A stretch of 64,000 nt of DNA from Terasakiella sp. SH-1. GTDB lineage: Bacteria > Pseudomonadota > Alphaproteobacteria > Rhodospirillales > Terasakiellaceae. Positions 37,219 through 59,906 of the stretch are shown in pieces (positions within the stretch are counted from its first letter, which is position 1; every line of letters begins with the position of its first letter). The stretch is from contig NZ_CP038255.1 in assembly GCF_004564135.1 (NCBI RefSeq), positions 1,148,501-1,212,500 on the forward strand, read 5' to 3'. The notes below the pieces were generated by a model. It did no database searches. It was given only the letters and a program-made list of their open reading frames with translations, and was not told where the DNA came from. Both the position numbers and the translations under genes were made by a program.

Positions 37219-39456
37219 TTATACCTCCGTCTCATTTTGTGGTGCTGCGGGGCGTTTGCGTGCCCCCCAGCCCCGTCGTTGGGGTGGGACTGTTGTGGCG
37301 GGCGTTGACTGTTCAACTTGGGGAAGGCCGATCAGGTTGAGTTCTTGCTTCCACATATCAGCGTAAACGCCTTTTTGGGCAACAAGGTCTTCATGCTTTC
37401 CGCTTTCAACAAGACGTCCTTCTTTCATAACAAGGATTTGGTCGCATTCGCGGGCATGTGAAATACGATGGGCAATGAGGATCAGGGTTCTGCCAGAGGC
37501 AATATCAGGCATTTTTTGTCGAACAGCATGTTCTGTTTCCAGATCAAAATGGGCAAAGGCTTCATCTAAAATAAGGATGCGGGGGTTCCTGATTAACGCT
37601 CGGGCCAAGGCGATTTTATGACGCATACCGACCGATAGATTACTGCCGCCTTCTTCAATTTCTGTTTCATAGCCGTTGCTAAGCTGGTCAATATCCACAT
37701 CCAGCCCGACAAGTTCTGCCGCCCATGTCACCCGCGCACTTCCCGCACCAGGAAAAGGCTGCATGATGTTTTCACGAATGGTGCCTTTGAAAAAATGGGG
37801 CGTTTGGGTGACGCAAGCCACGTTATAGCGCAGGTGGGCTAAATCCATCAGGCGCAAATCATGCCCATCAATGGTGATGCTGCCGTTTTGTGGGCGGATA
37901 ATGCCCTGTATCAGCCGTCCCATGGTGGTTTTACCGGACCCTGTTGGCCCAACGATTGCGATCTTTTGGCGCGGCTGGATGTTGACGTTAAGCTCTTTAA
38001 TGGAAGGGGCGCTATCATCATAGTGAAAGCTAACGTTGTGAAACGTGACATCCCCTAAAATTTCAGGAACTTCCCCCCGGCGATGCATTTCACCACGGGT
38101 ATTCATGACCGAACCGATACTATCAACGGCTCGTGTCACTTTTTCAACATCTGTCACCAGTGTCACAAGCTGGACTAATGGCCCGGTGACTTTGCCTGCA
38201 AGCATGTTCACACCAATCAGGACACCTGCGCTCAATTCACCAGCAAAGACCAGCTGGACCCCAATGAAAATAACGGCAACAGTCATTAATTGTTGAAGGG
38301 TTGAACTGATTTGGGAAGAAATGGCATTGGCACTTCCCAGTTTTAAATGGGCAACGGTATGATCTGAAATTGCATCTTCCCAGTTTTTCTTCTGAACCGG
38401 TTCCAGAGCCAGTGTTTTGACTGTTTCAATACCCGAGATTGAGTCCATCAAGATGGCTTGTTTTCTAATGTCTGCGGTTGAGGCACGTTGTAAGCGATGT
38501 TTCTGGAGCTTGGTTGCCACAATCACATTGGCTGAAATAGCAAGGGAAAACAGAATGACCACGCCACACAAGAGAGGGCTGTATATAAACAGAATGGGAA
38601 TGAACACCATTAAAGATGTCGCATCCAGTACAGCCCCGAAAAAACGTCCAGTTAAGGCTTGGCGCAAGGAAATGGTCTGTTGCAGAGTTTTTGAAACTTC
38701 TGGAATCGAGCGTTTCTGAAAGTAGGAAAGCGGAAGGTCAAGCAGCTTGGAAAAGAGCTTTGCATTCAGGCGGACATCTACTTTGCCAGAGGCAAACAGG
38801 ACAATATATTGGCGCAGATACCCCAAAAAGCCATTGAACAAATAAGCAATGATCACACCGGAGGTGATGACATAAAGTGTCGATGTGGCTTCAAAATTAA
38901 CCACTTTGTCCAACACGATCATGATGAAGACGGCAGGTAAAACGGCAAAAGCATGCAAAATCAGGGAAATAACAAGCAATTGTCCCATCAGGGATTTATG
39001 TCGAAAATACCCTGACATCAGCCATGAGAAATCAAACGGGCGGTCTTCATCGAAGAAGTCGTACTTTCTTTTTAATAAGATAAGTTGCCCTGCCCAATGC
39101 TGGGCAAAGGCAGCATGGTCGACTGTTTCAGTCTGGGGGGTGCCTGAGGCAGGATCAATGACCGTCAGGGATTGGATTGAGTGTTTATCTTCAGCAAGTT
39201 TAAACCCTGTCAGCAAGACGCAACGGTTATCTTTGAGCCGGGCAATAAGGGGGAAGGCATCTTTTAAAGAGGTTAGCTTTTCTAAGGAAAAACTTCCCTG
39301 CTTTGCTTTCAGGCCGTGTTCTTGTGCAATGCGCACCAGTGTTTTGGTATCGGCTTCTTTATCGCCAATGTTAAATGTGTGAACCAGTGTATCCACACTC
39401 AGTTCAATCCCTTGTTGGCGTGCGGCCAAAACCAGACATTTCAGTGCTGTGTGCAT
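37219..39456 (-). CDS. Type I secretion ABC exporter with degenerate C39-like domain
   Basis: The 745-residue protein has an N-terminal C39-like domain (1-130) whose catalytic Cys position is not recognisable, so it is probably non-proteolytic as in HlyB. Six membrane helices (about 155-440) follow. The ATPase domain has Walker A GPTGSGKTT (about residue 505), Walker B ILILDEAFAHFD and H-loop IAHRIS. The signature is LSVGM instead of LSGGQ, and whether this lowers activity is unknown. It likely exports a protein with the adjacent fusion protein. No TolC gene is nearby. Confidence 0.92.
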   Translation of the reverse strand: MHTALKCLVLAARQQGIELSVDTLVHTFNIGDKEADTKTLVRIAQEHGLKAKQGSFSLEKLTSLKDAFPLIARLKDNRCVLLTGFKLAEDKHSIQSLTVIDPASGTPQTETVDHAAFAQHWAGQLILLKRKYDFFDEDRPFDFSWLMSGYFRHKSLMGQLLVISLILHAFAVLPAVFIMIVLDKVVNFEATSTLYVITSGVIIAYLFNGFLGYLRQYIVLFASGKVDVRLNAKLFSKLLDLPLSYFQKRSIPEVSKTLQQTISLRQALTGRFFGAVLDATSLMVFIPILFIYSPLLCGVVILFSLAISANVIVATKLQKHRLQRASTADIRKQAILMDSISGIETVKTLALEPVQKKNWEDAISDHTVAHLKLGSANAISSQISSTLQQLMTVAVIFIGVQLVFAGELSAGVLIGVNMLAGKVTGPLVQLVTLVTDVEKVTRAVDSIGSVMNTRGEMHRRGEVPEILGDVTFHNVSFHYDDSAPSIKELNVNIQPRQKIAIVGPTGSGKTTMGRLIQGIIRPQNGSITIDGHDLRLMDLAHLRYNVACVTQTPHFFKGTIRENIMQPFPGAGSARVTWAAELVGLDVDIDQLSNGYETEIEEGGSNLSVGMRHKIALARALIRNPRILILDEAFAHFDLETEHAVRQKMPDIASGRTLILIAHRISHARECDQILVMKEGRLVESGKHEDLVAQKGVYADMWKQELNLIGLPQVEQSTPATTVPPQRRGWGARKRPAAPQNETEV

Positions 39457-39568: not shown

Positions 39569-40666
39569 TTACACGACGTCCGTTTCGTCCATTTCCGGTG
39601 GTGGGGGCATATCTCCTGCCATATCGCCTTCTGGCGGTGGTGGCATGTCCCCATCCGGGTGTGGTGCATCTGTCATATGTTCATCCATGCTTTTGCTTAC
39701 GGCATCATCCATCGCGGCCATTGTCGCATCTTCTGGCGGTGGTGGCATGTCGCTTTGTGGTGGTGGCGGTGGTGGCATATCTCCGCCCGGTGGTGGCATG
39801 TCCCCTGCCTGTGGCTGGTCAAACATTGGGATGTCTTCACCCGTATGTTCCATTGGTGCAGGGTCATTCCCCCATGTCCCGTCTTCAGGTGGGGGTGGGG
39901 CCTCACCATCAGGGGGCGGCATATGTTCGTCATGGGGGGGGTGTTCTTCACCAGGTGGTGGCGGTGGCGGCATTTCACCTTCATGATGGTGTTCATCCCC
40001 ACCAGCAGCATCAAGGCCAGCCCCAAAGGCTTCTTCAGGGGAGGCACCATCGGCCAAGGCTGTGTCAAAGGCTTCCTGAACAGCAGTCGCACCTTCTTCA
40101 AACTCTTCTGGCGGAACGCCGATGTCTTGAGCGGCTTGTGCAGCAGCATCCATGGCAGCAGCCATGGCATCTTGTGGTGTTGCCCCGTTATCCATGGCAT
40201 CCTTAAAGGCATCGCCTGCAGCTTGCCCAATCTCATCTCCCTCTGGCGGTGGCATGTCACCCGGTGGCGGAGGTGGTGGCGCTTCTCCTTCCGGCGGTGG
40301 CATATCACCCGGTGGTGGAGGTGGTGGTGCTTCTCCTTCTGGTGGCGGCACATCACCCGGTGGCGGTGGCGGCATTTCGCCTTCTGGGGCAACAGCATCC
40401 ATACCGGCACCAAAGGCTTCTTCTGGTGAGGCACCATTTGCGAGGGCATCGCTAAAAGCGGATTGGAACTCTGTCGAGCCTGCTTCAAATTCTTCCGGGG
40501 GCATGCCCATGTCTGTTGCAACTGTTTGTGCTGCACCCATTGCTGCATCTAGTGCTTCTTCAGGGCTGGCCCCATTGTCCATGGCGTCTTTGAATGCTGT
40601 GCCTGCAGCTTCACCAAGGGGGTCTCCTTCTGGAGGCATTTGAGGATTATTAAATTCGTCTGCCAT
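39569..40666 (-). CDS. Acidic proline-rich two-repeat protein, candidate type I secretion cargo
   Basis: The 365-residue protein has no signal peptide or cysteine and is rich in Pro, Glu, Asp, Ala, Met and Gly. Two homologous Ala-rich domains of about 78 residues (17-92 and 145-222) share AFKDAMDNGA, PPEEFE, DGASPEEAFGAG-type segments. They flank a 16-residue Pro repeat (GEAPPPPPPGDMPPPE, three units, about 94-144). A second Pro/Met-rich tail covers 225-365. There are no RTX nonapeptides. The position directly before the exporter and fusion-protein genes makes export likely. This is inference, and the function is unknown. Confidence 0.82.
   Translation of the reverse strand: MADEFNNPQMPPEGDPLGEAAGTAFKDAMDNGASPEEALDAAMGAAQTVATDMGMPPEEFEAGSTEFQSAFSDALANGASPEEAFGAGMDAVAPEGEMPPPPPGDVPPPEGEAPPPPPPGDMPPPEGEAPPPPPPGDMPPPEGDEIGQAAGDAFKDAMDNGATPQDAMAAAMDAAAQAAQDIGVPPEEFEEGATAVQEAFDTALADGASPEEAFGAGLDAAGGDEHHHEGEMPPPPPPGEEHPPHDEHMPPPDGEAPPPPEDGTWGNDPAPMEHTGEDIPMFDQPQAGDMPPPGGDMPPPPPPQSDMPPPPEDATMAAMDDAVSKSMDEHMTDAPHPDGDMPPPPEGDMAGDMPPPPEMDETDVV
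40236..40379. repeat. 48-bp tandem repeat inside the proline-rich gene
   Basis: Three units start at 40236, 40284 and 40332, each beginning TCTCC on the plus strand, with a few base differences mostly at third positions. They encode the 16-residue proline unit. Copy number could vary by slippage, changing linker length between the two domains. Confidence 0.85.
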
Positions 40667-47323: not shown

Positions 47324-47345
47324 TTTACGTTTACGTAAAGGTAAA
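47324..47345 (+). promoter_or_regulatory. LiuR operator 1, upstream of liuR
   Basis: The sequence TTTACGTTTACGTAAAGGTAAA contains the perfect 10-bp palindrome TTTACGTAAA (47330-47339) and 7-bp arms CTTTACG/CGTAAAG. It lies 18 nt before the liuR start and aligns with the two stronger sites at 47822 and 50117. This suggests autoregulation. Confidence 0.75.
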
Positions 47346-47362
47346 ATAATATCGCTTTTGTT

Positions 47363-47755
47363 ATGACTGAAGAAAAATCAAAAACATACAGTATCACGGA
47401 ATTATCGAAGGAATTCGATGTTACCACCCGTACCATCCGTTTTTACGAAGACAAGGGGTTGATCTCTCCTGAGCGTGAAGGCCAGCGTCGGATTTATTCG
47501 CCACGTGATCGCGTGCGTCTGCGTTTGATTATGCGGGGAAAACGGATTGGCTTTGCCTTGTCTGAAATTCAGGAATTGATTGATCTCTATGATACGGACC
47601 GTTCTGAGGTGACACAGCTTGAAGTGCTGATTGACCGTATTCAGGGACGCCGAGATGCATTGGTCAGTCAGCAGCATGATATCAACACAATGTTGGAAGA
47701 ACTAAGTGATCTTGAAAATAAGTGTGTTCAAAGACTGAAGTCCAAAAAAGTCTGA
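47363..47755 (+). CDS. liuR: MerR-family regulator LiuR
   Basis: The 130-residue protein has the MerR winged helix-turn-helix (SITELSKEFDVTTRTIRFYEDKGL, then GQRRIYSPRDRVRLRLI) and a C-terminal dimerisation coiled coil. It lacks the metal-binding cysteines of CueR or MerR types; its one Cys is near the end (ENKCVQRL). The TTTACGTAAACG-type palindromes at three promoters and the neighbouring leucine-degradation genes identify it as LiuR, known from other Proteobacteria to control that pathway. Confidence 0.9.
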   Translation: MTEEKSKTYSITELSKEFDVTTRTIRFYEDKGLISPEREGQRRIYSPRDRVRLRLIMRGKRIGFALSEIQELIDLYDTDRSEVTQLEVLIDRIQGRRDALVSQQHDINTMLEELSDLENKCVQRLKSKKV

Positions 47756-47818
47756 AAACTTATTTCTAGAGCGTGTCGCGTATAGGTAATGATGTTCAGA
47801 TTAAATGTAGTTTATAAG

Positions 47819-47846
47819 TTGACGTTTACGTAAACGTAAATATAAT
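47819..47846 (+). promoter_or_regulatory. LiuR operator 2 within a promoter, upstream of the thioesterase pair
   Basis: TTGACG (47819-47824), a 16-nt spacer and TATAAT (47841-47846) form a near-consensus promoter. A perfect 16-bp palindrome ACGTTTACGTAAACGT (47822-47837) fills the spacer. The 27 nt at 47811-47837 are identical to 50106-50132. A regulator bound here would cover the polymerase site. Confidence 0.88.
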
Positions 47847-47877
47847 AGCCTCGTCATTTAAAATCACGAGGTGCATC

Positions 47878-48327
47878 ATGACCCAAACTCAAAAGACAAT
47901 CCTGACACATCGCAGTACGGTGCAGCAGTGGGAATGTGACCATATGGGGCATTTAAATGTCCGTAACTATATGGCTAAATTTGATGATGCAGCCTGGAGC
48001 TTTCTTGCGGTTTTAGGCATTAATAAAGCGTATTTTACCGAACGCCAGGGCGGCGTGGCAGCTGTGGACCACCATGTAACCTATAAGAAAGAACTTTTGC
48101 CCGGTGATTGTGTTGAGGTTTATTCAGAATTGGTGATGCTGGCAGGCAAGAAATTTAAAATTCACCATCAAATGCGCAATGCGGTCACCGGGGATGCCAT
48201 AGCTGACTGTGAACTTTTCGGGGTGCATATGGATCAAAAAGCCCGACGCGCCTGTGATTTTCCTGAAGATATTCTGCAAACAGCACAAGCCTATTTGCCT
48301 GTTGCTGATGATGTTGCCGCGCAATGA
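47878..48327 (+). CDS. Acyl-CoA thioesterase, 4-hydroxybenzoyl-CoA thioesterase type
   Basis: The 149-residue hot-dog protein has WECDHMGHLNVRNYMAKFDDA, in which the Asp of CDHMGHLN is the family catalytic position, and VDHHVTYKKELLPGDCVEVYSEL. It probably hydrolyses a short or branched acyl-CoA. The LiuR operator in its promoter suggests a role around leucine or branched-chain acyl-CoA overflow. The precise substrate is unknown. GAGGTG is the ribosome site. Confidence 0.85.
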   Translation: MTQTQKTILTHRSTVQQWECDHMGHLNVRNYMAKFDDAAWSFLAVLGINKAYFTERQGGVAAVDHHVTYKKELLPGDCVEVYSELVMLAGKKFKIHHQMRNAVTGDAIADCELFGVHMDQKARRACDFPEDILQTAQAYLPVADDVAAQ

Positions 48328-48339
48328 GGAGAAAGAATA

Positions 48340-48774
48340 ATGAACTTTCAGCCGCGTTCGCAAAACTATATTGAAATTGTGCAGGCTGCGTTTGAACGAC
48401 AAGGCTTTATGAAACATCTTGGGACTGAGCTGGTTGATGTCCGTCCCGGTTTTTGTGAATTACATATCCCGTTTAAGGAAGAATTGGACCAGCATCATGG
48501 TTATTTTCATGGTGGAGTGATTGGCTCACTGGCTGATGTGTCTGGTGGTTTTGCGGGCTATACATTGGTGGAAGAAGGTCAGGCTATGCTGACGGTGGAA
48601 TATAAGCTCAATATTATTTCACCGGGGGCTGGGGATTATTTGAAAGGGGTGGGCCGTGTTGTTAAATCCGGTCGTACCCTGACTGTCACCCATATTGATG
48701 TCTATGGGGTGAAAGATGGGATCGAAACCCAATGTGCCACCGCAATCCAGACTTTGATGGCGGTATCGGCTTAA
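48340..48774 (+). CDS. PaaI-type thioesterase
   Basis: The 144-residue hot-dog protein shows HLGTELVDVRPGFCELHIPF and the PaaI motif HHGYFHGGVIGSLADVSGGFAG, with VEYKLNIISPG. Such enzymes hydrolyse acyl-CoA esters. It follows the other thioesterase by 12 nt and is probably in the same LiuR-controlled transcript. Confidence 0.87.
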   Translation: MNFQPRSQNYIEIVQAAFERQGFMKHLGTELVDVRPGFCELHIPFKEELDQHHGYFHGGVIGSLADVSGGFAGYTLVEEGQAMLTVEYKLNIISPGAGDYLKGVGRVVKSGRTLTVTHIDVYGVKDGIETQCATAIQTLMAVSA

Positions 48775-48825
48775 ATTTCAAAACAATTAAATTAACGCTT
48801 GCTTATATGATCTTCTCTTTTTTAT

Positions 48826-48841
48826 ATTAGTTAAAACTAAT
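48826..48841. promoter_or_regulatory. Inverted repeat upstream of the YeeE/YedE pair
   Basis: ATTAGTT and AACTAAT are separated by AA and end 6 nt before the GGAG ribosome site of the next gene. It could be a repressor operator. The flanking sequence is AT-rich and no -10/-35 pair is certain. Confidence 0.4.
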
Positions 48842-48857
48842 TATTTTGGAGAAGAAA

Positions 48858-49421
48858 ATGCTCTGTTGGAAAAAAGGTGGCCTGTTGCTTGGCTTCGTTT
48901 TTTTAATGGCGGTCGTATTGGTTAAGCCCATTGGGGTTTCAACCCAGTTTGTCATTTTTGATGGTATCTTGTGGGATGCTGTTGATAATTCTGTCGTGGT
49001 GGAATCTACAGAAAGCAAAAGTGGCTATGCCAGTGAAAACGCGTATTTGAATAAAAGTGGTGGCAAATATGCCAAGAATGTATCCAACCCGGTGAATTAC
49101 AGCTTTATTTTCGTCGTTGCCATGATTGTGGGGGCGGGACTGTCTGCTTTTTTACGAGGTGGTGTAAAAACAGAAGAAAAATGCATGCCTGATGTATGGC
49201 GGGCCAATTTCGGGGATGACCCGATGAAACGTTATGTCATGGCCTTTGTTGCGGGCTTTCTCGTTCTTTATGGTGCGCGTTTGGCGGGGGGATGCACCAG
49301 CGGCCATATGATGAGCGGCATGATGCAAACCGCAGTGTCTGGTTATATTTTTGCCCTTGGGGCTTTTGCAGCAGGAATCCCACTTGCCATTATGATGTTT
49401 AAAAAGCAGGAGCGTAGCTGA
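48858..49421 (+). CDS. YeeE/YedE family membrane protein, first half
   Basis: I start at the ATG at 48858 (187 residues), since GGAG at 48848 is its ribosome site; a TTG at 48846 overlaps that site. Four hydrophobic helices and a polar insert (about residues 40-80) are present. The conserved GARLAGGCTSGHMMSG motif carries the cysteine used by thiosulfate-uptake proteins of this family. It overlaps the next gene by one base. It likely forms one half of a split transporter for thiosulfate or a related sulfur species. Confidence 0.85.
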   Translation: MLCWKKGGLLLGFVFLMAVVLVKPIGVSTQFVIFDGILWDAVDNSVVVESTESKSGYASENAYLNKSGGKYAKNVSNPVNYSFIFVVAMIVGAGLSAFLRGGVKTEEKCMPDVWRANFGDDPMKRYVMAFVAGFLVLYGARLAGGCTSGHMMSGMMQTAVSGYIFALGAFAAGIPLAIMMFKKQERS

Positions 49422-49993
49422 TGGAAAAGATTATTCTTGCGATTGTGATCGGCGGGGCGTTTGGTTTTGTACTGGACCGCATTGGGGCAACCAACCCAAA
49501 TAACATCATTCATATGCTGCGTTTGAGCAAGCTACACTTGATGAAGACAATCTTGCTTGGCATTGGGTTTTCATCTGTGTTGATGTTTGGTGGCTTGATG
49601 GTGGGGCTTATTGATGTTGCCCATATGTCTGTTAAGACAGCTTATATAGGCGTATTTGTTGGCGGTATTTTGCTTGGTCTTGGGTTTGCGGCAGCTGGTT
49701 ATTGTCCTGGGACTGGCTTGGCAGCTATGGCAACGGGGCGCAAAGATGCGATCTTCTTTGTGCTGGGTGGTCTTGTGGGGGCTGGGGCCTATATGGCGAC
49801 CTATTCCCAGATTAAGGCGACAGGTCTTCTTGATAAGGTATTGGGCGGGAAAGTGACGCTTGGTGCTGTTGATGGATCTAAATATGGCAGCCTGTTTGAA
49901 GCGATGCCCGGTGAAATGATTGGTATTGCACTGGGGGTTGTCTTCATGGTGATTGCTTTTGTTCTGCCTAATAGTTTCAGAAAAGAAGCTTAG
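49421..49993 (+). CDS. YeeE/YedE family membrane protein, second half
   Basis: The 190 residues form about five helices and contain AAGYCPGTGLAAMATGRKDA, the second cysteine-bearing half-motif of the family. It pairs with the previous gene to make up the full-length transporter seen as a single chain in E. coli. Expression would be coupled (TGATGG overlap). A strong terminator follows at 50060. Confidence 0.85.
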   Translation: MEKIILAIVIGGAFGFVLDRIGATNPNNIIHMLRLSKLHLMKTILLGIGFSSVLMFGGLMVGLIDVAHMSVKTAYIGVFVGGILLGLGFAAAGYCPGTGLAAMATGRKDAIFFVLGGLVGAGAYMATYSQIKATGLLDKVLGGKVTLGAVDGSKYGSLFEAMPGEMIGIALGVVFMVIAFVLPNSFRKEA

Positions 49994-50059
49994 ATTCCTG
50001 CTTTATAGAGAACAGCGGGGGCAGTTTAATCTGGTTTGACCGGATGAGGGTAATTTAAA

Positions 50060-50101
50060 AAATGCGATGTTTCCTAGGGTTTAGGGGCATCGCATTTTTT
50101 T
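50060..50101 (+). terminator. Terminator of the YeeE/YedE pair
   Basis: AAATGCGATG (50060-50069) and CATCGCATTT (50088-50097) form a perfect 10-bp stem with an 18-nt loop followed by a T-run. It isolates the upstream transcript from the liu operon, whose operator starts 12 nt later. Confidence 0.88.
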
Positions 50102-50113
50102 ATAATTTATAAG

Positions 50114-50142
50114 TTGACGTTTACGTAAACGTTAAATACGCT
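50114..50142 (+). promoter_or_regulatory. LiuR operator 3 within the liu operon promoter
   Basis: TTGACG (50114-50119) and TACGCT (50137-50142) are 17 nt apart. The perfect 16-bp palindrome ACGTTTACGTAAACGT (50117-50132) overlaps the -35 and spacer. The -10 is weaker than at operator 2. It lies about 55 nt before liuA. Confidence 0.87.
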
Positions 50143-50197: not shown

Positions 50198-51370
50198 ATG
50201 AGTTTCGTTGAATATCCGTCTTTGAACTTTAACCTTGGTGAAACAGCGGACATGATCCGCGATACCGTGAGTGCCTTTGCACAGGAAGAAATCGCACCGA
50301 TTGCGGAAAAAACGGATGTTGAAAACGCTTTTCCGAACCATTTATGGAAACGTTTTGGTGAACTGGGTTTGCTCGGCATTACGGTTGAAGAAGAATATGG
50401 CGGCTCTGGTCTTGGCTATCTGGAACATATCATCGCCATGGAAGAAATCAGCCGTGCATCTGCTTCCATCGCCCTGTCTTATGGGGCGCATTCCAACCTG
50501 TGTGTGAACCAAATTCGCCGCAATGGTAATGACGAGCAGAAACAGAAATATCTGCCGAAACTGATCTCTGGTGATCATATCGGCGCACTTGCCATGTCTG
50601 AGCCGGGTTCTGGTTCTGACGTTGTGTCCATGCGTTTGAAGGCAGAGAAAAAGGGTGATCGCTATATCCTGAACGGTAATAAAATGTGGATCACCAATGG
50701 CCCAGATGCAGACACTTTGGTGGTCTATGCCAAAACGGATCTGGATGCTGGCCCGAAAGGCATCACGGCTTTCATCATTGAAAAAGGTTTTAAAGGTTTC
50801 TCAACGGCACAAAAACTCGACAAGCTCGGCATGCGTGGGTCCAACACCTGTGAGCTGGTCTTTGAAGACTGCGAAGTGCCGGAAGAAAATATCCTTGGTG
50901 AATTGAACAAAGGTGTTCGCGTTCTCATGTCCGGTCTGGACTATGAACGTGCGGTTCTCGCTGGTGGGCCGACTGGTATTATGATGGCGTGCATGGACGT
51001 CGTGGTCCCCTATATCCATGAGCGCAAACAGTTCGGTCAGTCCATCGGTGAATTCCAGCTTATTCAAGGTAAAGTCGCTGATATGTATTCCACCATGAAT
51101 GCATGTCGTGCTTATGTCTATGCGGTTGGTGGGGCGTGTTCTCGCGGGGAAACAACCCGTAAAGATGCTGCTGGCGTGATCCTTTATTCTGCGGAAAAAG
51201 CCACACAAATGGCACTGGATGCTATTCAAATCCTTGGTGGTAATGGCTACATTAATGAATATCCGACAGGTCGTCTGCTGCGTGATGCCAAGCTTTATGA
51301 GATTGGCGCAGGTACATCTGAAATTCGCCGCATGCTGATCGGGCGTGAGCTGTTCAACGAGACGAAGTAA
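50198..51370 (+). CDS. liuA: Isovaleryl-CoA dehydrogenase
   Basis: The 390-residue flavoprotein has [19 protein letters not shown] and [19 protein letters not shown] (FAD and substrate loops). The catalytic Glu is placed at residue 250 in [12 protein letters not shown], the position typical of isovaleryl-CoA dehydrogenase and unlike most acyl-CoA dehydrogenases. At the usual C-terminal site it has [10 protein letters not shown] without that Glu. It oxidises isovaleryl-CoA to 3-methylcrotonyl-CoA and passes electrons to ETF. Confidence 0.95.
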
Positions 51371-51395: not shown

Positions 51396-52586
51396 ATGTC
51401 AAACAATGATCCTATCGTAATTGTCGGTTCTGCACGCACACCTATGGGCGGCATGCAGGGTGATTTCTCTGGTCTGACAGCCTCACAGCTTGGTGGGGAA
51501 GCCATCAAGGCAGCTGTAGAACGTTCTGGCCTTAAGGCTGAGGATGTGGGTGAAGTGATTTTCGGTAACGTGTTGGGCGCAGGCCAAGGTCAGGCCCCAG
51601 CACGCCAAGCTGCCCTTGGTGGCGGTCTGGAACTGAAAACAGGTTGTACGACCATTAATAAAATGTGTGGGTCCGGTATGAAAGCGACCATGCTGGCCCA
51701 TGACCTGATCAAGGCGGGCATTAATGATGTGATGGTTTCCGGTGGTATGGAGAGCATGACCAATGCGCCTTACTTGTTGGAAAAAGCGCGTGGCGGTATG
51801 CGTCTGGGCCATGGTGAGGTCAAAGACCATATGTTCCTGGATGGTCTGGAAGATGCCTATGATAAAGGACGTCTGATGGGTACCTTTGCCGAAGAATGTG
51901 CACAGTCTTATCAGTTCACCCGTGAAGAGCAGGATAATTTTGCCATCCGTTCACTCTCTCGTGCCAATGCTGCTATTGAAGATGGCACGTTCAAAAGCGA
52001 GATCACGCCGGTAACGTTGAAAACACGCAAGGGCGAAACGGTTATTGATACGGATGAGCAGCCGGGCAATGCACGCCCAGATAAAATCCCGTCCCTGCGT
52101 CCGGCCTTTGCCAAAGATGGCACGGTGACAGCAGCGAACTCTTCTTCTATTTCCGATGGGGCAGCAGCGCTTGTTCTTATGCGTGAAAGCGAAGCGGAAA
52201 AGCGTGGCCTGAAACCACTGGCACGTATCATGGGCCATACGACCTATGCGCAAGAGCCAAACCTGTTCACCACAGCCCCTGTGTTCGCCATGAAAGAGCT
52301 GCTCGACCAAGTAGGGTGGACAAAGGACGATGTGGACCTGTGGGAAATCAACGAAGCCTTTGCAGTTGTGACCATGGCGGCCATGCGTGATCTGGAACTG
52401 GATGCAGATAAGGTCAATGTCCATGGTGGGGCCTGTGCATTGGGTCATCCGATTGGGGCAAGTGGTGCGCGTATCATCGTGACATTGCTTAACGCGCTTG
52501 AAAAATACGGCAAGAAAAACGGTGTGGCTTCGCTCTGCATCGGAGGTGGTGAAGCAACCGCCATGGCCTTTGAACGTGTCGAATAA
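51396..52586 (+). CDS. Acetyl-CoA C-acetyltransferase (thiolase)
   Basis: I start at the ATG at 51396 (396 residues, MSNNDPIVIVGSARTPMGG). The nucleophile Cys91 is in TINKMCGSGMKA. NEAFAVVTMAAMRDL and GGACALGHPIGASGARI hold the other active-site residues. It condenses or cleaves acetoacetyl-CoA. In this operon it may handle the acetoacetate produced by HMG-CoA lyase after activation. It is not an obligatory liu gene. Confidence 0.92.
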   Translation: MSNNDPIVIVGSARTPMGGMQGDFSGLTASQLGGEAIKAAVERSGLKAEDVGEVIFGNVLGAGQGQAPARQAALGGGLELKTGCTTINKMCGSGMKATMLAHDLIKAGINDVMVSGGMESMTNAPYLLEKARGGMRLGHGEVKDHMFLDGLEDAYDKGRLMGTFAEECAQSYQFTREEQDNFAIRSLSRANAAIEDGTFKSEITPVTLKTRKGETVIDTDEQPGNARPDKIPSLRPAFAKDGTVTAANSSSISDGAAALVLMRESEAEKRGLKPLARIMGHTTYAQEPNLFTTAPVFAMKELLDQVGWTKDDVDLWEINEAFAVVTMAAMRDLELDADKVNVHGGACALGHPIGASGARIIVTLLNALEKYGKKNGVASLCIGGGEATAMAFERVE

Positions 52587-52623: not shown

Positions 52624-53760
52624 ATGATTCTGAATGAAGAGCAAATCCTAATTCGTGACATGGTGCGTAATTTCGCCCGTGATCGCATCACCCCAAACGC
52701 TCGTGAGTGGGAGGCCAATGAGGCCTTCCCCAAAGAGATTTTTGCCGAGATGGCAGAGCTTGGTTTGATGGGGATGGTTGCCCCGGCTGAGTATGGCGGG
52801 TCCGAGATTGGTTATGTCGGTCTTGCACTGGCACTTGAAGAAATTGCTGCTGGAGATGGTGGTTTAAGTACGGTGCTTTCTGTCCATAATTCAGTGGGTT
52901 ATGGGCCAATCTTAAAGTTTGGAACGAGCGCGCAAAAAGACAAGTTTCTGGCCCCAATGGCGGCTGGTGACAAACTTGGATGTTTTGCTTTAACTGAGCC
53001 TCATACCGGTTCAGATGCCTCTGCATTGAAGTGTCGTGCCAAGCGTGATGGGGATGAGTATATCCTGAACGGCACCAAGCAATTTATCACGTCCGGGAAA
53101 ATTGGCGATACGCTCATCGCGTTTGCCGTAACTGATCCGGATAAAGGTGCCAAGGGCATTTCTGCCTTCATCGTGCCGACAGATACACCCGGTTATATCG
53201 TCTCTAGCCTCGAACATAAGATGGGGCAAAAGGCATCTGACACGGCACAGATCGTGTTTGAAGATATGCGTATCCCGGCAGCCAATTTGTTGGGTGAAGA
53301 AGGTATGGGTTACAAGATTGCCCTGTCCGGCCTGGAAAGTGGTCGCATCGGTATTGCGTCCCAATGTGTCGGTATGGCACGTGGGGCACTGGATGCGGCT
53401 GTTGAATATGCCAAAGAACGTGAAGCTTTTGGCAAACCGATCTGCGAACATCAGGCGATTGCCTTTAAATTAGCCGATATGGCGACCCAAGTGCATGCTG
53501 CACGCCAAATGGTGATGCATGCTGCGAGCTTGAAAGATGCAGATCAGCCCTGTTTGGCCGAGGCTTCCATGGCGAAAGTCTTTGCTTCTGAGATGGCGGA
53601 AAAAGTCTGTTCTGATGCCATTCAGGTTTTTGGTGGCTATGGCTATTCATCGGAATTCCCGGTGGAAAAATACTATCGTGATGTTCGAATTTGCCAAATT
53701 TATGAAGGCACAAGTGAGGTACAGAAAATTGTTATCTCCCGTGCGGTTCTAAACGGTTAA
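52624..53760 (+). CDS. Acyl-CoA dehydrogenase, short/branched-chain type
   Basis: The 378-residue enzyme (ATG 52624) has LTEPHTGSDASALKC and KQFITSGKIGDTLIAFAVT. The catalytic Glu is at the usual C-terminal position in QIYEGTSEVQKIVISR. It therefore differs mechanistically from liuA at 50198. Substrate could be butyryl, isobutyryl or 2-methylbutyryl-CoA. Its place in the liu operon suggests other branched-chain amino acids are degraded along with leucine. Confidence 0.9.
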   Translation: MILNEEQILIRDMVRNFARDRITPNAREWEANEAFPKEIFAEMAELGLMGMVAPAEYGGSEIGYVGLALALEEIAAGDGGLSTVLSVHNSVGYGPILKFGTSAQKDKFLAPMAAGDKLGCFALTEPHTGSDASALKCRAKRDGDEYILNGTKQFITSGKIGDTLIAFAVTDPDKGAKGISAFIVPTDTPGYIVSSLEHKMGQKASDTAQIVFEDMRIPAANLLGEEGMGYKIALSGLESGRIGIASQCVGMARGALDAAVEYAKEREAFGKPICEHQAIAFKLADMATQVHAARQMVMHAASLKDADQPCLAEASMAKVFASEMAEKVCSDAIQVFGGYGYSSEFPVEKYYRDVRICQIYEGTSEVQKIVISRAVLNG

Positions 53761-53898: not shown

Positions 53899-54507
53899 AT
53901 GGCAAATCCAATTGAATTCTATTTCGAATTTGGTAGCCCCTATGGCTATTTTTCTGCCCAGGAAATTGACGCGATTGGGCAGGAATTTGGTCGTGAGGTG
54001 GTCTGGAAACCTTTCATGCTCGGCTCGGCTTTTAAAGCCACGCAATCCATGCCGCTGATGAATGTACCGCTGAAAGGTCCCTATTGTGTGCATGACTGGG
54101 AACGTATGAGTGCCTATACGGGCACCGCGTGGAAACTGCCTGAAAAATTCCCGGCAGCCATTCTGGCGGCACCGCGTGGGTTTTACTGGTTGAAAGATCA
54201 AGGTCAGGACGAGCTGGCCGTGACTTTTGCCAAGGCTGCTTACAAAGCCTATTTTGCCGAAGGTCGCCCCTTGTGGGAGTTGGAGGCGACAGCAGATATC
54301 GCTGCAGAATGTGGCATTGAGAGAGATGAGTTCTTACAGGCGGTACAAACGCCTGAAGTTAAAGCGAGATTAATTGAAGAAGGCCAGAAAGCTATTGAGT
54401 CTGGTGTGTTCGGTTCCCCCTTCATCCGTGTAGACGGTGAAGACTTCTGGGGATGGGACCGCTTGGCTATGGTTCGTGACTGGCTCAAAAATGGGAAGTG
54501 GGGATAA
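53899..54507 (+). CDS. DsbA-fold isomerase of the HCCA isomerase type
   Basis: The 202-residue protein begins IEFYFEFGSPYGYFSAQEI, with a Ser in place of the Cys of thioredoxin motifs. It carries VVWKPFMLGSAFKATQ and GVFGSPFIRVDGEDFWGWDRL, typical of 2-hydroxychromene-2-carboxylate isomerase-like, glutathione-using proteins. A role in leucine breakdown is not established. It is preceded by a 138-nt gap with a possible hairpin (TGAAGTAA 53792, TTACTTCA 53822) and followed by liuB after 3 nt. Confidence 0.82.
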   Translation: MANPIEFYFEFGSPYGYFSAQEIDAIGQEFGREVVWKPFMLGSAFKATQSMPLMNVPLKGPYCVHDWERMSAYTGTAWKLPEKFPAAILAAPRGFYWLKDQGQDELAVTFAKAAYKAYFAEGRPLWELEATADIAAECGIERDEFLQAVQTPEVKARLIEEGQKAIESGVFGSPFIRVDGEDFWGWDRLAMVRDWLKNGKWG

Positions 54508-54510
54508 TTA

Positions 54511-56124
54511 ATGTCTGTCCTTAAAAGTTCAATCAACACCCGGTCTGATGATTTCAAGACCAATGCCGAGGCCATGCAAAAGCAGGTCGACGAGCTTAAA
54601 GATGTCATCAAAACGGTAAAACAAGGCGGTGGTACGACAGCGAATGAGCGTCATATTCGCCGTGGTAAATTACTGGTACGTGAACGTATCCGTCGTCTGC
54701 TGGATGTGGGGTCACCGTTTCTGGAACTCTCACAGCTGGCTGGCTGGGAAATGTACCCAGAAGATGGTACCATTGCCGCAGGCGGGATCATCACCGGGAT
54801 TGGCCGTATTGAAGGTCAGGAATGTATGGTGGTTGCCAACGATCCGACCGTAAAGGGGGGCTCTTATTATCCCATCACGGTGAAAAAGCACTTACGTGCG
54901 CAAGAGATTGCCAAGAAAAACAATCTACCTTGTGTGTATCTGGTTGAATCCGGTGGGGCAAACCTGCCGCGCCAAGATGAAGTTTTCCCAGACCGTGACC
55001 ATTTTGGTCGCATCTTTTATAACCAAGCGACAATGTCGGGTCAGAATATTCCGCAGGTCGCGGTGGTTCATGGGTCTTGTACGGCAGGTGGGGCTTATGT
55101 ACCGGCCATGTCTGATGAGAGCATCATTGTTAAAGAACAGGGCACCATCTTCCTCGGTGGCCCACCGCTGGTAAAAGCAGCCACGGGTGAAGTGGTTTCT
55201 GCCGAAGACCTTGGTGGGGCAGATGTTCACTGTAAAACATCTGGCGTGGCTGATCACTACGCCCAAGATGATGGTCATGCGTTGGCCTTGGCGCGTCAGG
55301 TGGTGCGTAACCTCAACCGTGTGAAGAACCCGAATTTGGATATCCGCGAACCTGTTGATCCCCTTTATCCCGCAGAAGAACTCTATGGCATCATTCCGGC
55401 TGACCCGAAAAAGCCGTTTGATGTACGCGAAGTCATTGCCCGTATTGTGGATGGGTCACGCTTTGATGAATTTAAGGCGCTGTACGGCACAACATTGGTG
55501 ACAGGTTTTGCCCACCTTTATGGCTATCCAGTTGGGATTGTAGCGAACAACGGTATTTTGTTCTCAGAATCTGCGCAAAAAGGCGCTCACTTTATTGAGC
55601 TTTGCGCCCAACGTGGCATTCCGCTGCTCTATTTGCAAAATATCACGGGCTTTATGGTTGGTCGTAAGTATGAAGCCGAAGGCATCGCCAAACATGGTGC
55701 CAAGATGGTAACGGCAACGGCTTGTGCCAACGTTCCGAAAATCACCTGTGTAATTGCGGGTTCCTTCGGCGCGGGTAACTACGCCATGTGTGGTCGTGGT
55801 TATGATCCAAACTTCATGTTCATGTGGCCGAACTCCCGTATCTCTGTGATGGGTGGGGAACAAGCTGCGGGCGTACTTGCCACCATCAAACGTGATGGGA
55901 TGGAACGCAAAGGTGAAGAGTGGTCTGCCGAAGAAGAAGCCGCCTTTAAGCAGCCTATTTTGGAAAAATACGAAGAAGAAGGTCACCCGTTCTATGCCTC
56001 TGCCCGTTTGTGGGATGACGGTATTTTTGATCCGGTCAATACACGCATGATGCTGGGCCTCAGCCTGTCAGCGTCCCTTAATAAACAGATTGAGCCGACA
56101 AACTTCGGCGTCTTCCGTATGTAA
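54511..56124 (+). CDS. liuB: Methylcrotonyl-CoA carboxylase carboxyltransferase (beta) subunit
   Basis: The 537-residue protein has [38 protein letters not shown] and [18 protein letters not shown]. It also has [20 protein letters not shown] and [18 protein letters not shown], the pattern of MCC beta (rather than PCC beta). With the biotin subunit it carboxylates 3-methylcrotonyl-CoA to 3-methylglutaconyl-CoA. It stands in the usual liu order before the hydratase. Confidence 0.95.
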
Positions 56125-56133
56125 GGGGCGATC

Positions 56134-56922
56134 ATGACGGATACTTCAAAAATTGAGATTGATGCGCGCGGTGTGGCAACTTTGACCATGACCCGTGGCG
56201 ACATGCACAATGCCTTTGATGATGCGATGATCGCAGATTTAACGGCCAAGCTTAAAGAGCTGGAAGCTAACGAAGCGGTGCGTGTGGTTGTGCTGGCGGC
56301 AGAAGGCAAAAGCTTCAGTGCAGGTGCAGACCTGAACTGGATGAAGCGTATGGCTGGTTATTCTTATGAAGAAAATGTTGAGGATGCCATGGGCTTGGGC
56401 GGTTTGCTGGAAACGCTGAATTTCCTGAAAAAACCGACCATTGCGAAAGTTCAGGGCGCTGCCTTTGGCGGCGGTGTCGGTTTGGTCGCGGCCTGTGATA
56501 TGGCGGTGGGGACAGAAAAAGCCAGCTTCTGCCTGTCAGAAGTCAAGCTTGGCCTGATCCCGGCGGTGATTTCACCCTATGTGGTGAACGCCATGGGGCA
56601 ACGTGCCAGTCGTCGCTACATGCTGACAGCAGAACGGTTTAAGGCCGATGAAGCCTTGCGTTTTGGCTTGCTGCATGAGGTCGTCGGCGTTGATGAGCTG
56701 GACGGTGCGGTTGAAAGCCTGATCGAAGCCATGATGGGCAATGGCCCGGCCTCAGTTGCGGCCTGTAAAGACCTGATCTTTGCTGTTTATAACCGTCCGG
56801 TCGATGAGACAGTGATTAAAGATACGGCCAAGCGCATTGCCACACAGCGTGCGAGTGTTGAAGGAAAAGAGGGCCTGGGTGCCTTCCTTGAAAAAAGAAA
56901 ACCTGCTTGGGTGGGGGAATAA
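56134..56922 (+). CDS. liuC: 3-Methylglutaconyl-CoA hydratase
   Basis: The 262-residue crotonase-fold protein has MTRGDMHNAFDDAMI, the oxyanion loop AEGKSFSAGADLNWMKRMAG, AKVQGAAFGGGVGLVAACDMAV and FCLSEVKLGLIPAVISPYV. It hydrates methylglutaconyl-CoA to HMG-CoA. Nine nt separate it from liuB, and the biotin subunit starts 2 nt after its stop. Confidence 0.93.
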   Translation: MTDTSKIEIDARGVATLTMTRGDMHNAFDDAMIADLTAKLKELEANEAVRVVVLAAEGKSFSAGADLNWMKRMAGYSYEENVEDAMGLGGLLETLNFLKKPTIAKVQGAAFGGGVGLVAACDMAVGTEKASFCLSEVKLGLIPAVISPYVVNAMGQRASRRYMLTAERFKADEALRFGLLHEVVGVDELDGAVESLIEAMMGNGPASVAACKDLIFAVYNRPVDETVIKDTAKRIATQRASVEGKEGLGAFLEKRKPAWVGE

Positions 56923-56924
56923 GA

Positions 56925-58922
56925 ATGTTTACGAAAATCCTGATTGCCAACCGTGGTGAGATTGCTTGCCGTGTGATTAAAACTGCGCGCCGTATGGGTG
57001 TGAAAACGGTGGCTGTATATTCAGATGCCGATGCCGGGGCCATGCATGTGGCCATGGCGGATGAGGCTTATCATATTGGGGGCGCGGCTGCGGCTGAAAG
57101 TTACCTCTGTTACGACAAGATCATTGAAGTCTGCAAACAGTCTGGGGCGCAAGCCGTCCATCCAGGCTATGGCTTCCTGTCTGAAAACGCGGCCTTCTGC
57201 CGTGCCCTGGCTGAAAATGACATTACCTTTATTGGTCCGCCAGTTGGCGCAATTGAGGCTATGGGGTCCAAATCCGAAGCCAAAAAGATCATGGAAAAAG
57301 CCGATGTGCCATTGGTACCGGGCTATCACGGGGATGAACAGTCTATCGAGTTCATGAAGAATGAAGCCGATAAAATGGGCTATCCGGTGATCTTGAAAGC
57401 TGCTGCTGGTGGTGGCGGTAAGGGCATGCGCATTGTCTGGAAAGCCGAAGAGATTGAAGATGCTTATGAAGCAGCCAAGCGCGAAGCAATCAAGGGCTTT
57501 GGCGATGACCATATGCTGGTTGAAAAATATCTGACCAAGCCACGCCACGTGGAAATTCAGGTCTTTGCCGATCAACATGACAATGTGGTTTACCTGTTTG
57601 AACGCGATTGTTCCGTTCAGCGCCGCCACCAAAAAGTCTTTGAAGAAGCGCCTGCCCCCCTGATGCAGAACGACCTGCGTGCCCGTATGGGGAAAGCAGC
57701 CTGTAATGCCGCGCGTGCCATTGGCTATGAAGGCGCAGGCACGGTTGAATTCCTGTTGGATGAAGACGGGTCTTTCTATTTCATGGAAATGAACACCCGC
57801 TTGCAGGTGGAACACCCGGTGACAGAAATGATCACGGGCGAAGATCTGGTGGAATGGCAACTGCGTGTGGCTGCGGGTCAAACCTTGCCACAAAAACAGG
57901 ATGACCTGTCCATCAGCGGTCATGCCATTGAAGTGCGTGTTTATGCCGAAGACCCGGATAATGATTTCTTGCCGGCAACAGGGACATTGACCCACCTGCG
58001 TCCACCGCAAGAAAGCGCCCATGTTCGTGTGGATACAGGTGTGCGCGAAGGTGATGAAGTCTCCATTCATTATGATCCGATGATTTCAAAACTGATCGTT
58101 TGGGCTGATACACGTGAGGGCGCTTTGCGTCACCTGCGCAAAGCCTTGAACGAATATCAGGTGGTCGGTCTGACAACCAATATTGAGTTCCTTGCCACAC
58201 TGGCGGCCCATCCGGCTTTTGTGAATTTTGATGTGGATACGGGCTTTATTGCCAAACATGAAAATGACCTCTTCCCTAAACGTGAACATATCACCGATGA
58301 TGCTTTGGCATTGGCCTGTCTGGATGTGTTTATCACCCGTGATGAAGAAGCACAGGCACAGGCCGATTGGTCCGGTGACCCGTTCAGCCCATGGCATTCC
58401 ACAAGTGGTTTCCGCATGAATGATGATAACCATCATGAACTCTATTTCGTGGAAGGCGATGATATCATTACAGTGACATGCCACTACCGTGATGAAGGTT
58501 ATGTGATGGAACTGCCCGGTGGTGATGTTCTGGTGCGTGGTGAGCGTGATGACAATGGCGATCTGGCCGCTGACCTCGGCGGGCGTCGCATGAAGGCAAC
58601 TGTGGTGCGCCATGGGGATAATCTGGAAATCCTTGTTCATGGTCGTGCCCATGCGCTCAAACTGTTTGACCCGCTGGCCGCAGCCGAAGGTCAGGATGAG
58701 GTTTCCGGTTCCTTGACATCACCCATGCCGGGTAAGGTTGTTTCTGTTTTGGTGGAAAAAGATCAGGAAGTAAAAGAAGGCGATAGCCTGATGATCCTGG
58801 AAGCCATGAAAATGGAACATACGATCTTTGCCCCCATGGACGGTGTGGTGGCTGATATCTTCTTCAATGCTGGTGACCAGCTGGAAGAAGGTGTAGAGTT
58901 GCTGAAACTTCAGGGTGAATAA
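56925..58922 (+). CDS. liuD: Methylcrotonyl-CoA carboxylase biotin (alpha) subunit
   Basis: I start at ATG 56925 (665 residues, MFTKILIANRGEIACRV). A TTG at 56907 would overlap liuC. It has the biotin carboxylase domain with KAAAGGGGKGMRIV and EMNTRLQVEHPVTEMI, a linker, and the biotinyl domain with EAMKMEHTI, Lys629. It resembles pccA at 25486 but pairs with liuB here. GGGGGAATAAGA is the ribosome site. Confidence 0.94.
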   Translation: MFTKILIANRGEIACRVIKTARRMGVKTVAVYSDADAGAMHVAMADEAYHIGGAAAAESYLCYDKIIEVCKQSGAQAVHPGYGFLSENAAFCRALAENDITFIGPPVGAIEAMGSKSEAKKIMEKADVPLVPGYHGDEQSIEFMKNEADKMGYPVILKAAAGGGGKGMRIVWKAEEIEDAYEAAKREAIKGFGDDHMLVEKYLTKPRHVEIQVFADQHDNVVYLFERDCSVQRRHQKVFEEAPAPLMQNDLRARMGKAACNAARAIGYEGAGTVEFLLDEDGSFYFMEMNTRLQVEHPVTEMITGEDLVEWQLRVAAGQTLPQKQDDLSISGHAIEVRVYAEDPDNDFLPATGTLTHLRPPQESAHVRVDTGVREGDEVSIHYDPMISKLIVWADTREGALRHLRKALNEYQVVGLTTNIEFLATLAAHPAFVNFDVDTGFIAKHENDLFPKREHITDDALALACLDVFITRDEEAQAQADWSGDPFSPWHSTSGFRMNDDNHHELYFVEGDDIITVTCHYRDEGYVMELPGGDVLVRGERDDNGDLAADLGGRRMKATVVRHGDNLEILVHGRAHALKLFDPLAAAEGQDEVSGSLTSPMPGKVVSVLVEKDQEVKEGDSLMILEAMKMEHTIFAPMDGVVADIFFNAGDQLEEGVELLKLQGE

Positions 58923-59006: not shown

Positions 59007-59906
59007 ATGCCTTTTCCAAAAAAAGTAAAAATCGTCGAAGTCGGCCCCCGTGACGGGTTGCAAAATGAAAAGCAATTGGTCTCTGTCGATACCAAGGTTG
59101 AACTGGTTGATCGTTTGACCCAAGCGGGGCTGAGTGCCGTTGAAGCCGGAAGCTTTGTATCGCCCAAATGGGTGCCGCAAATGGCCGATAGTGACAAGGT
59201 GCTGGCACAAGTCAAAAAGGCCGATGGCGTGTCTTTCCCGGTTCTGACCCCCAATATGAAAGGGTTTGAGGCCGCGATGGAAGCTGGCGCTAAGGAAGTC
59301 GCGATTTTTGCCGCAGCCTCAGAAGGGTTTTCCCAAAAGAATATCAACTGTTCAATTGCAGAAAGTATTGAACGGTTTGAACCGATTATGGCGGCAGCAA
59401 AGGAACAGGATATCGCGGTGCGCGGTTATGTTTCCTGCGTGGTTGGCTGTCCTTATGATGGGGCGATTGCACCAGAAAAAGTTGCTGAAGTTTCTACGCG
59501 CCTTTATGACATGGGCTGTTATGAGATTTCATTGGGCGACACCATTGGGGTGGGGACCCCGGCCAAGGTTGCTGAAATGATTGCTGCGGTGTCGCAAACC
59601 GTGCCGATTGGCAAGCTGGCAGGTCACTTCCATGATACCTACGGTCAGGCCCTTGCCAATATCTATGCGGCACTGGAATTGGGTATTCATGTGTTTGATT
59701 CGTCTGTGGCGGGGCTGGGCGGCTGTCCTTATGCCAAGGGGGCCTCGGGCAATGTGGCAACAGAAGATGTTGTCTTCATGCTGAATGGATTGGGTATTGA
59801 AACTGGCGTGGATTTGGCTACATTGTGCGAGGCAGGTCGCTATATCAGCCAGTCGCTGGGCCGTGTTCCTGCCTCAAAAGTATCTTTGGCGTTGAGCGCA
59901 CAATAA
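59007..59906 (+). CDS. liuE: Hydroxymethylglutaryl-CoA lyase
   Basis: I start at ATG 59007 (299 residues, [21 protein letters not shown]). The longer frame to 58932 overlaps sequence without family match. GPRDGLQNE provides metal and catalytic residues. [22 protein letters not shown] contains the active-site cysteine, and GHFHDTYG the metal histidines. It cleaves HMG-CoA to acetyl-CoA and acetoacetate, the end of leucine degradation. Confidence 0.94.

Follow-up and report, generated by a model that had tools for sequence, protein, structure and literature searches.

Conserved palindromic operators link hotdog thioesterases to a predicted LiuR regulon of leucine degradation

The founding study of the LiuR regulon, in Proteobacteria, is reportedly that of Kazakov et al. 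2009. In the parts of two later papers considered here, LiuR is a MerR-family regulator of isoleucine, leucine and valine degradation operons (PMC3223726, on Shewanella; Leyn et al. 2016, PMC5343134), and the first of them terms it a repressor. The main texts of both, supplementary gene lists aside, do not contain the word thioesterase. For the alphaproteobacterium Rhodospirillum rubrum, the section of PMC7238569 considered here places ILV boxes at an ivd cluster as well as at liuR and the liu cluster, with a DsbA-like gene inside liu; no thioesterase is among the ILV box genes of that section, the thioesterase of the paper being a malyl-CoA thioesterase. Here we describe a stretch of 64,000 nucleotides from the alphaproteobacterium Terasakiella sp. 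SH-1 (positions 1,148,501 to 1,212,500 of NZ_CP038255.1, hereafter the window), in which palindromic operators accompany a liuR gene, two genes for hotdog thioesterases (TE1 and TE2) and a liu operon. The locus resembles the known systems in its MerR-family regulator of branched-chain degradation, in the boxes at liuR and the liu cluster and in the DsbA-like gene within liu. It differs in recurrent thioesterase members, found together with icmF, the gene of a B12 mutase, and with an enoyl-CoA hydratase that is paired with a third thioesterase (TE3). A LiuR regulon with recurrent thioesterase members, putatively serving release of coenzyme A (CoA), would be the new element. Our literature search returned no link between LiuR and thioesterases; RegPrecise, the founding regulon paper and supplementary regulon tables were outside that search, and an earlier listing is possible.

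As judged from sequence, the regulon core is probably an operator-blocking LiuR under which the thioesterases are made together with the pathway and return free CoA from stalled acyl-CoAs. The first-pass annotation of the window had tentatively assigned the thioesterases to the leucine regulon, and this predicted link is well supported by conservation, because the operator is kept ahead of TE1, TE3 shares the operator at another locus, and TE2 tracks LiuR.

A motif scan of the window found the 16-bp palindrome ACGTTTACGTAAACGT twice with no mismatch, at 47822 and 50117, where the first-pass annotation had read it; these boxes precede TE1 and the liu operon, respectively. The weaker site which that annotation had noticed before liuR is one base off and reads ACGTTTACGTAAAGGT (Table 1). 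At up to three mismatches, the 64 kb hold exactly these three matches, compared with a mean of 0.18 and a maximum of 2 in 100 shuffles. The two perfect boxes belong to regions sharing an identity of exactly 27 nt, TTTATAAGTTGACGTTTACGTAAACGT (47811-47837 and 50106-50132), again in agreement with the annotation. The near-consensus TE1 promoter with its 16-nt spacer also stood up, TTGACG-16-TATAAT scoring 11/12. Promoter-like matches around it are at chance level (5 against 5.7 expected), so the scan carries no weight and the argument rests on conservation. The -10 element of liuR is ambiguous, as AATAAT with a 15-bp spacer outscores TAATAT. The liuR box variant with its single mismatch is identical in the window and in five relatives (G001-G005), and since they keep it before liuR, this site probably reflects real autoregulation.

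Conservation was followed in 60 genomes, the own genome (G000) and 59 relatives, with thresholds of E<=1e-30 for TE1, 1e-18 for TE2, 1e-20 for LiuR and 1e-180 for LiuB; all counts from this sample are phylogenetically dependent. LiuR relatives occur in 25 of the 60 genomes, the own one included, and TE1 in 11, that is in the own genome and ten relatives. The operator is conserved ahead of TE1 beyond chance: a perfect box lies just upstream of TE1 in seven of the ten (G001-G004, G008, G009 and G053), and in one more (G054) TE1 directly follows liuR and a one-mismatch box, i.e. lies in the liuR operon. A member of the same genus without TE1 and the TE1 box (G005) has TE2 directly after liuR. TE3 is preceded by a box in the own genome as well as in G001-G005, G011, G014 and G018, and box and called start of the TE3 relative overlap in G033 and G050.

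TE2 is present in 23 of the 25 LiuR genomes and in none of the 35 genomes without LiuR, the weakest best match among positive genomes being 7e-49. After removal of the four families from which the TE2 profile was built, the contrast persists (13/15 LiuR genomes against 0/33 others; counted by families, 9/11 against 0/16). In 22 of the 23 genomes, TE2 and one of liuR, liuA or liuB are no more than about 10 kb apart; the other (G011) is too fragmented to tell. LiuB without LiuR, a control for the pathway itself, was met in three genomes, none of them with TE2; with so small a number, an effect of LiuR cannot be told apart from one of the pathway. A tandem pair of TE2 relatives was seen beside liuR in one genome (G030:C43:13384-14287).

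A wider view comes from GTDB genomes, where the best 80 of 242 confirmed TE1-relative loci, some on short contigs, were examined. Among these 80, 22 are linked to LiuR or liu genes or to IcmF, five of them duplicating genomes already counted (L102=G003, L103=G002, L138=G008, L143=G054, L165=G004); 13 loci carry a LiuR relative with 45% identity or more, 16 carry a box, and 6 an IcmF with 60% identity or more. The box occurs 27 times in the 1,054,289 bases of locus DNA, and the reversed motif and each of 40 shuffled palindromes occur 0 times. Three arrangements recur. The first is that of the window, liuR-box-TE1-TE2 ahead of the liu operon. In the second, TE2 and TE1 lie within the liu operon downstream of the box (e.g. 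L141 and L151); relatives of both are inside liu clusters of betaproteobacteria (L141, L151 and L176). The third, found in Burkholderiales (L109, L115, L116 and L162), is box-IcmF-TE1.

These arrangements bear on the simplest alternative, in which the TE1 operator serves the liu cluster alone and the thioesterases are unrelated neighbours by chance or hitch-hiking. The placement of TE1-TE2 between liuR and the liu operon would suit such a reading, as would the adjacent YeeE-like gene pair, which is not a conserved neighbour. It is nevertheless highly improbable, and conservation appears to have largely refuted it, given that TE3 has its box at a separate locus, that TE1 follows box-IcmF in Burkholderiales, that TE2 tracks LiuR in 23/25 genomes and that betaproteobacterial liu clusters contain relatives of both TE1 and TE2.

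Several observations weigh against regulon membership of the thioesterases. The sites are drawn from related genomes and hence are not independent. Two genomes (G015 and G039) carry TE1 with no LiuR and, allowing up to one mismatch, no box, and two LiuR genomes (G026 and G038) lack TE2. Of the best 80 loci, 58 show no link to LiuR, to liu genes or to IcmF in the DNA examined, so that, taken as a whole, the TE1 family is not specific to leucine and has other uses too. In a tree of TE1 from 57 of the 80 loci and the window, the 23 loci left out all being Bradyrhizobium or Pseudomonas, the label "linked" requires 8 changes (bootstrap 6-9) against 18.3 with shuffled labels, deep support being weak; the label is thus clustered, yet scattered over several branches. 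A Pfam scan of ten selected neighbouring open reading frames (ORFs) of loci without liu or IcmF link found a domain in 4/10, the picking of ORFs in this G+C-rich DNA being probably poor. In Bradyrhizobium (L106, L107, L112 and others) relatives of TE1 and TE2 are paired with no LiuR, box or liu genes nearby.

Classical MerR-activated promoters have spacers of 19-20 bp. We compared with them a set of 66 distinct operator sites, obtained from 77 rows by removing nine enoyl-CoA hydratase rows, one IcmF row with no TAnnnT at 17 bp (L199) and the second listing of L153, which was kept under TE2. Duplicate copies of a locus were excluded, as was L188 (G041), the box sequence of which is identical to that of G030. 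Across the 66 sites the -35 element overlaps the left operator arm, with TTG in 46. In 42/66, TAnnnT follows at a spacer of 17 bp, against 0-2 sites for every other spacer from 14 to 22 bp; 19 and 20 bp together account for 3/66. TA is found downstream in 45/66 and at the mirrored position in 8/66, an asymmetry which makes the TAnnnT pattern more than a continuation of the palindrome. By gene, the 17-bp pattern is present at 17/18 liuA, 8/9 TE3, 7/10 liuR and 6/8 TE1 sites, and at the divergent site between TE3 and the enoyl-CoA hydratase gene a good promoter is directed toward TE3. On the other side of the balance, only 3/17 icmF sites, where the arrangement differs, and 1/4 TE2 sites have the pattern, and the -10 of liuA in the window, TACGCT, is weak (3/6), many -10 hexamers being poor across the sites.

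Because the operator fills a normal spacer of 16-17 bp at several target promoters, LiuR is predicted most likely to block RNA polymerase and not to untwist the promoter. This had been suggested by the first-pass annotation and gains from the anatomy of the sites, as well as from the repressor label in the part of PMC3223726 considered here. The opposite case, a classical MerR protein which activates its targets by promoter untwisting, can draw on the domain architecture that LiuR shares with MerR, CueR and ZntR, namely MerR DNA-binding and dimerisation domains (PF13411, 2.5e-19, and PF09278, 5.4e-12, both exceeding the cut-off), and on the operator position between -35 and -10. We regard it as unlikely, for the spacers are mostly of 17 bp and not of 19-20 bp, LiuR has a single Cys in its translation, and its best match to the metal-sensing equivalog models MerR, CueR, ZntR and CadR reaches 65.5 bits with the cut-off at 143. 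The geometry makes a clear case of a MerR-family protein at normally spaced promoters.

Blocking by LiuR, which we favour, would work as follows. We infer that LiuR binds the palindrome, overlapping the -35 and filling the spacer, and thereby would keep RNA polymerase from liuR, the TE1-TE2 pair and the liu operon. A branched-chain acyl-CoA or a related signal might then release LiuR, so that TE1, TE2 and TE3 would be made alongside the leucine pathway, and the hotdog thioesterases could hydrolyse branched or stalled short acyl-CoAs to free CoA. Our best guess at their role is that they free CoA from stalled branched acyl-CoAs; the first-pass annotation had suggested release of excess branched acyl-CoA. 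In bacteria, acyl-CoA thioesterases are often without a known role, and the tight phyletic and regulatory tie of the TE2 family to LiuR points to one that is open to experiment, in which they would preserve free CoA, or dispose of toxic or dead-end branched acyl-CoAs, during the breakdown of branched-chain amino acids. With its operators on the promoters of these small enzymes in this marine bacterium and in several relatives, the presumed leucine switch may include an inbuilt safety valve that keeps the pathway from clogging.

The own genome, a single contig of 3.83 Mb, contains six operator copies at up to one mismatch, the reversed-motif control giving 0. Outside the window, one precedes icmF, and another lies, at a separate locus, between the divergent genes of TE3 and enoyl-CoA hydratase. 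A one-mismatch box (L099 2972, G000:C1:3002471) is situated between a run of genes for a Liv-type ATP-binding cassette (ABC) ATPase and an AMP-forming ligase and a gene for a hybrid histidine kinase; a second, weaker box is present about 50 bp from the first (L099; further loci of this group are L074, L081, L096 and L100). In relatives this site has a perfect box (G001) or one mismatch (G003), and in G018 and G031 a perfect box is near an unclassified ORF of 655-675 aa, ligase-like by eye. The Liv-type ABC and acyl-CoA ligase cluster is therefore a probable further member of the predicted regulon. A two-mismatch site ahead of a short-chain dehydrogenase gene would suit the pathway as a target. 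It counts against such sites that at two mismatches the own genome has 10 and the reversed control 4, so weak sites are not to be trusted alone. At G000:C1:1728626-1728988 lies the gene of another MerR-family protein, which shares 45% identity with LiuR; G001-G003 have similar second copies.

The operator before icmF raises the question of thioesterase substrates. IcmF typically has Phe and Gln in place of the Tyr and Arg of methylmalonyl-CoA mutase. The own IcmF (L005 1885-5145) passes the equivalog test for the fused architecture with 1929 bits against 1500, and has F579 and Q736 where the own methylmalonyl-CoA mutase-like protein has Tyr and Arg, two of ten alignment columns, picked by this signature. 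According to the part of PMC10481361 considered here, IcmF interconverts isovaleryl-CoA and pivalyl-CoA, so a hydrolase for the dead-end ester would make sense. The thioesterases might accordingly clear dead-end acyl-CoAs from IcmF-linked valine and leucine degradation, with pivalyl-CoA made from isovaleryl-CoA, or methacrylyl-CoA and 3-hydroxyisobutyryl-CoA where the classical valine route is absent, as candidate esters.

We hold this partnership to be a tentative possibility. It agrees with box-IcmF-TE1 forming one run in the four Burkholderiales loci, with TE1 directly after IcmF on a cut contig (L137) and with TE1 1.7 kb behind IcmF in L147. Within the genus, the own genome and G001-G004 combine IcmF (on two contigs in G004) with TE1 and have no true HIBCH or mmsB over cut-off, mmsA being absent as well from G000, G001 and G003, and G005 has an mmsB-HIBCH-mmsA cluster without IcmF and TE1. 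In three genomes (G014, G030 and G041; L185, L187 and L188), which have no mmsB over cut-off, an HIBCH-type hydrolase is right behind box-IcmF. Counted by genomes, IcmF occurs in 9/11 TE1 genomes and 13/49 others (Fisher p=0.001), but by families the association is not significant (p=0.15), within LiuR genomes p is 0.057, and IcmF itself tracks LiuR (19/22 against 6/38), so the tie may be indirect. Moreover, G015 and G039 have TE1 without IcmF; G034 has a LiuR-TE1-TE2-LiuA run (TE1 at 34% identity) with HIBCH and mmsB present and IcmF absent; and 9 of 22 IcmF genomes are without TE1 and true HIBCH, although in one of these, G018, a fragment resembling TE1 stands next to TE2 where the contig ends. 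The tie of TE2 is to LiuR and not to IcmF, as seen in G005, G033, G034, G042, G050 and the incomplete G052, which have TE2 and no IcmF over threshold. Coupling of TE1 to the B12 mutase IcmF is suggestive, and counter-examples exist. In a phylum-wide sample IcmF was found in 3/200 genomes, too few for neighbour statistics. In a betaproteobacterial metagenome-assembled genome (L108 5993-9816), a mutase gene is followed by a TE1 relative, an ORF of 151 aa and MeaB; this mutase has Tyr, as methylmalonyl-CoA mutase does, and Asn where IcmF has Phe and Gln, and hence is not of the IcmF type.

A different alternative makes one of the thioesterases a required catabolic step, for instance in place of 3-hydroxyisobutyryl-CoA hydrolase in valine degradation. 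TE1 and true HIBCH never share a genome at our thresholds (HIBCH in 0/11 TE1 genomes and 13/49 others), and HIBCH takes the TE1 slot behind IcmF in the three genomes just mentioned. The Fisher p of this exclusion is only 0.10, G034 holds a TE1 relative and HIBCH together, and the next enzymes are missing, mmsB over cut-off from G000-G004 and mmsA from three of them (G002 and G004 have mmsA). We consider a required step decidedly improbable, and TE1 as a plain replacement of the hydrolase was rejected on account of the missing mmsB and mmsA. A further reading combines the favoured regulation with IcmF: a conserved, LiuR-governed CoA-salvage module, a set of hotdog thioesterases made alongside leucine and valine catabolism, which would destroy dead-end acyl-CoAs made by the enzymes of the pathway, above all when IcmF replaces the classical valine route (pivalyl-CoA, or 3-hydroxyisobutyryl-CoA and methacrylyl-CoA). 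We put it forward as a speculative and not very probable extension. If true, it would be metabolite repair wired into the pathway's own transcriptional switch, with TE1 and the HIBCH-type hydrolase as interchangeable partners of IcmF; and if TE1 does partner IcmF, the case would show how cells handle the side reactions that a B12 mutase has in vivo.

As to the proteins themselves, the name LiuR relies on context: the gene has its own box, and liu genes adjoin it in the window as they do in several families of the order, there being no LiuR model among the NCBIfam matches of the regulator. The 4HBT_2 domain of TE1 scores 98.7 bits against a Pfam cut-off of 25.5. Asp21, which we take to be the catalytic Asp of the 4HBT_2 motif, is invariant in 30 sequences together with His25 and Asn27, and Gly24 is nearly so. 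The best NCBIfam match of TE1 is the C-terminal domain of carnitine 3-dehydrogenase (PRK07531, E 1.1e-17), followed by the YbgC/FadM thioesterases (TIGR00051, E 1.3e-5, 25.6 bits, cut-off 68.7), both far below cut-off. TE1 itself stands alone as a protein, its genomic links being to liu genes here and to icmF elsewhere among bacteria. TE2, which starts 12 nt past the end of TE1, gives no meaningful BLASTP match to it. It resembles PaaI-type thioesterases (3.2e-28 to the solved chain 3e1e_A), yet the equivalog models of the named enzymes PaaI/PaaD, EntH and MenI stay below cut-off. For the PaaI model TIGR02286 (hydroxyphenylacetyl-CoA thioesterase, cut-off 118.9), TE2 reaches 34.9 and TE3 29.5 bits, and NCBIfam assigns both to generic PaaI-type thioesterases.

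Table 1. Operators, promoters and genes of the liuR-liu region of the window (positions counted from its first nucleotide)
Feature	Position	Strand	Details
liuR promoter-operator	47324..47352	+	TTTACG (47324-47329), 17-bp spacer, TAATAT (47347-47352); one-mismatch box 47327-47342
LiuR, MerR-family regulator, 130 aa	47363..47755	+	Pfam MerR_1 and MerR-DNA-bind
TE1 promoter-operator	47819..47846	+	TTGACG, 16-bp spacer, TATAAT; perfect box 47822-47837
TE1, 4HBT_2 hotdog thioesterase, 149 aa	47878..48327	+	Pfam, NCBIfam, alignment
TE2, PaaI-type hotdog thioesterase, 144 aa	48340..48774	+	TIGR00369 above cut-off; 3e1e_A best solved chain
Two YeeE/YedE-like sulphur transport genes	48858-49993		between TE2 and liu operon
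liu operon promoter-operator	50114..50142	+	TTGACG, 17-bp spacer, TACGCT; perfect box 50117-50132
LiuA-like acyl-CoA dehydrogenase	50198..51370	+	head of liu operon; isovaleryl-CoA dehydrogenase by context
Thiolase, liu operon	51396..52586	+	
Second acyl-CoA dehydrogenase, liu operon	52624..53760	+	
DsbA-like thioredoxin-fold protein, liu operon	53899..54507	+	
LiuB-like carboxyltransferase	54511..56124	+	methylcrotonyl-CoA carboxylase beta by context; curated models all below cut-off
LiuC-like enoyl-CoA hydratase	56134..56922	+	best models below cut-off
LiuD-like biotin carboxylase subunit	56925..58922	+	
LiuE, hydroxymethylglutaryl-CoA lyase	59007..59906	+	PRK05692 above cut-off; last gene of liu operon

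The YeeE/YedE-like pair was considered as a core regulon member and rejected, since, of the liuR-liu intervals examined within the genus, that of G001 alone has it too. Where the window has one DsbA-like gene in the liu operon, two members of the genus have them in tandem (L064 8738-9966 and L065 281-1497). Elsewhere in the window, a proline-rich repetitive ORF on the minus strand (39569-40666), by eye perhaps a secreted repeat protein, neighbours an ORF (37219-39456) which by eye resembles a type I secretion ABC transporter.

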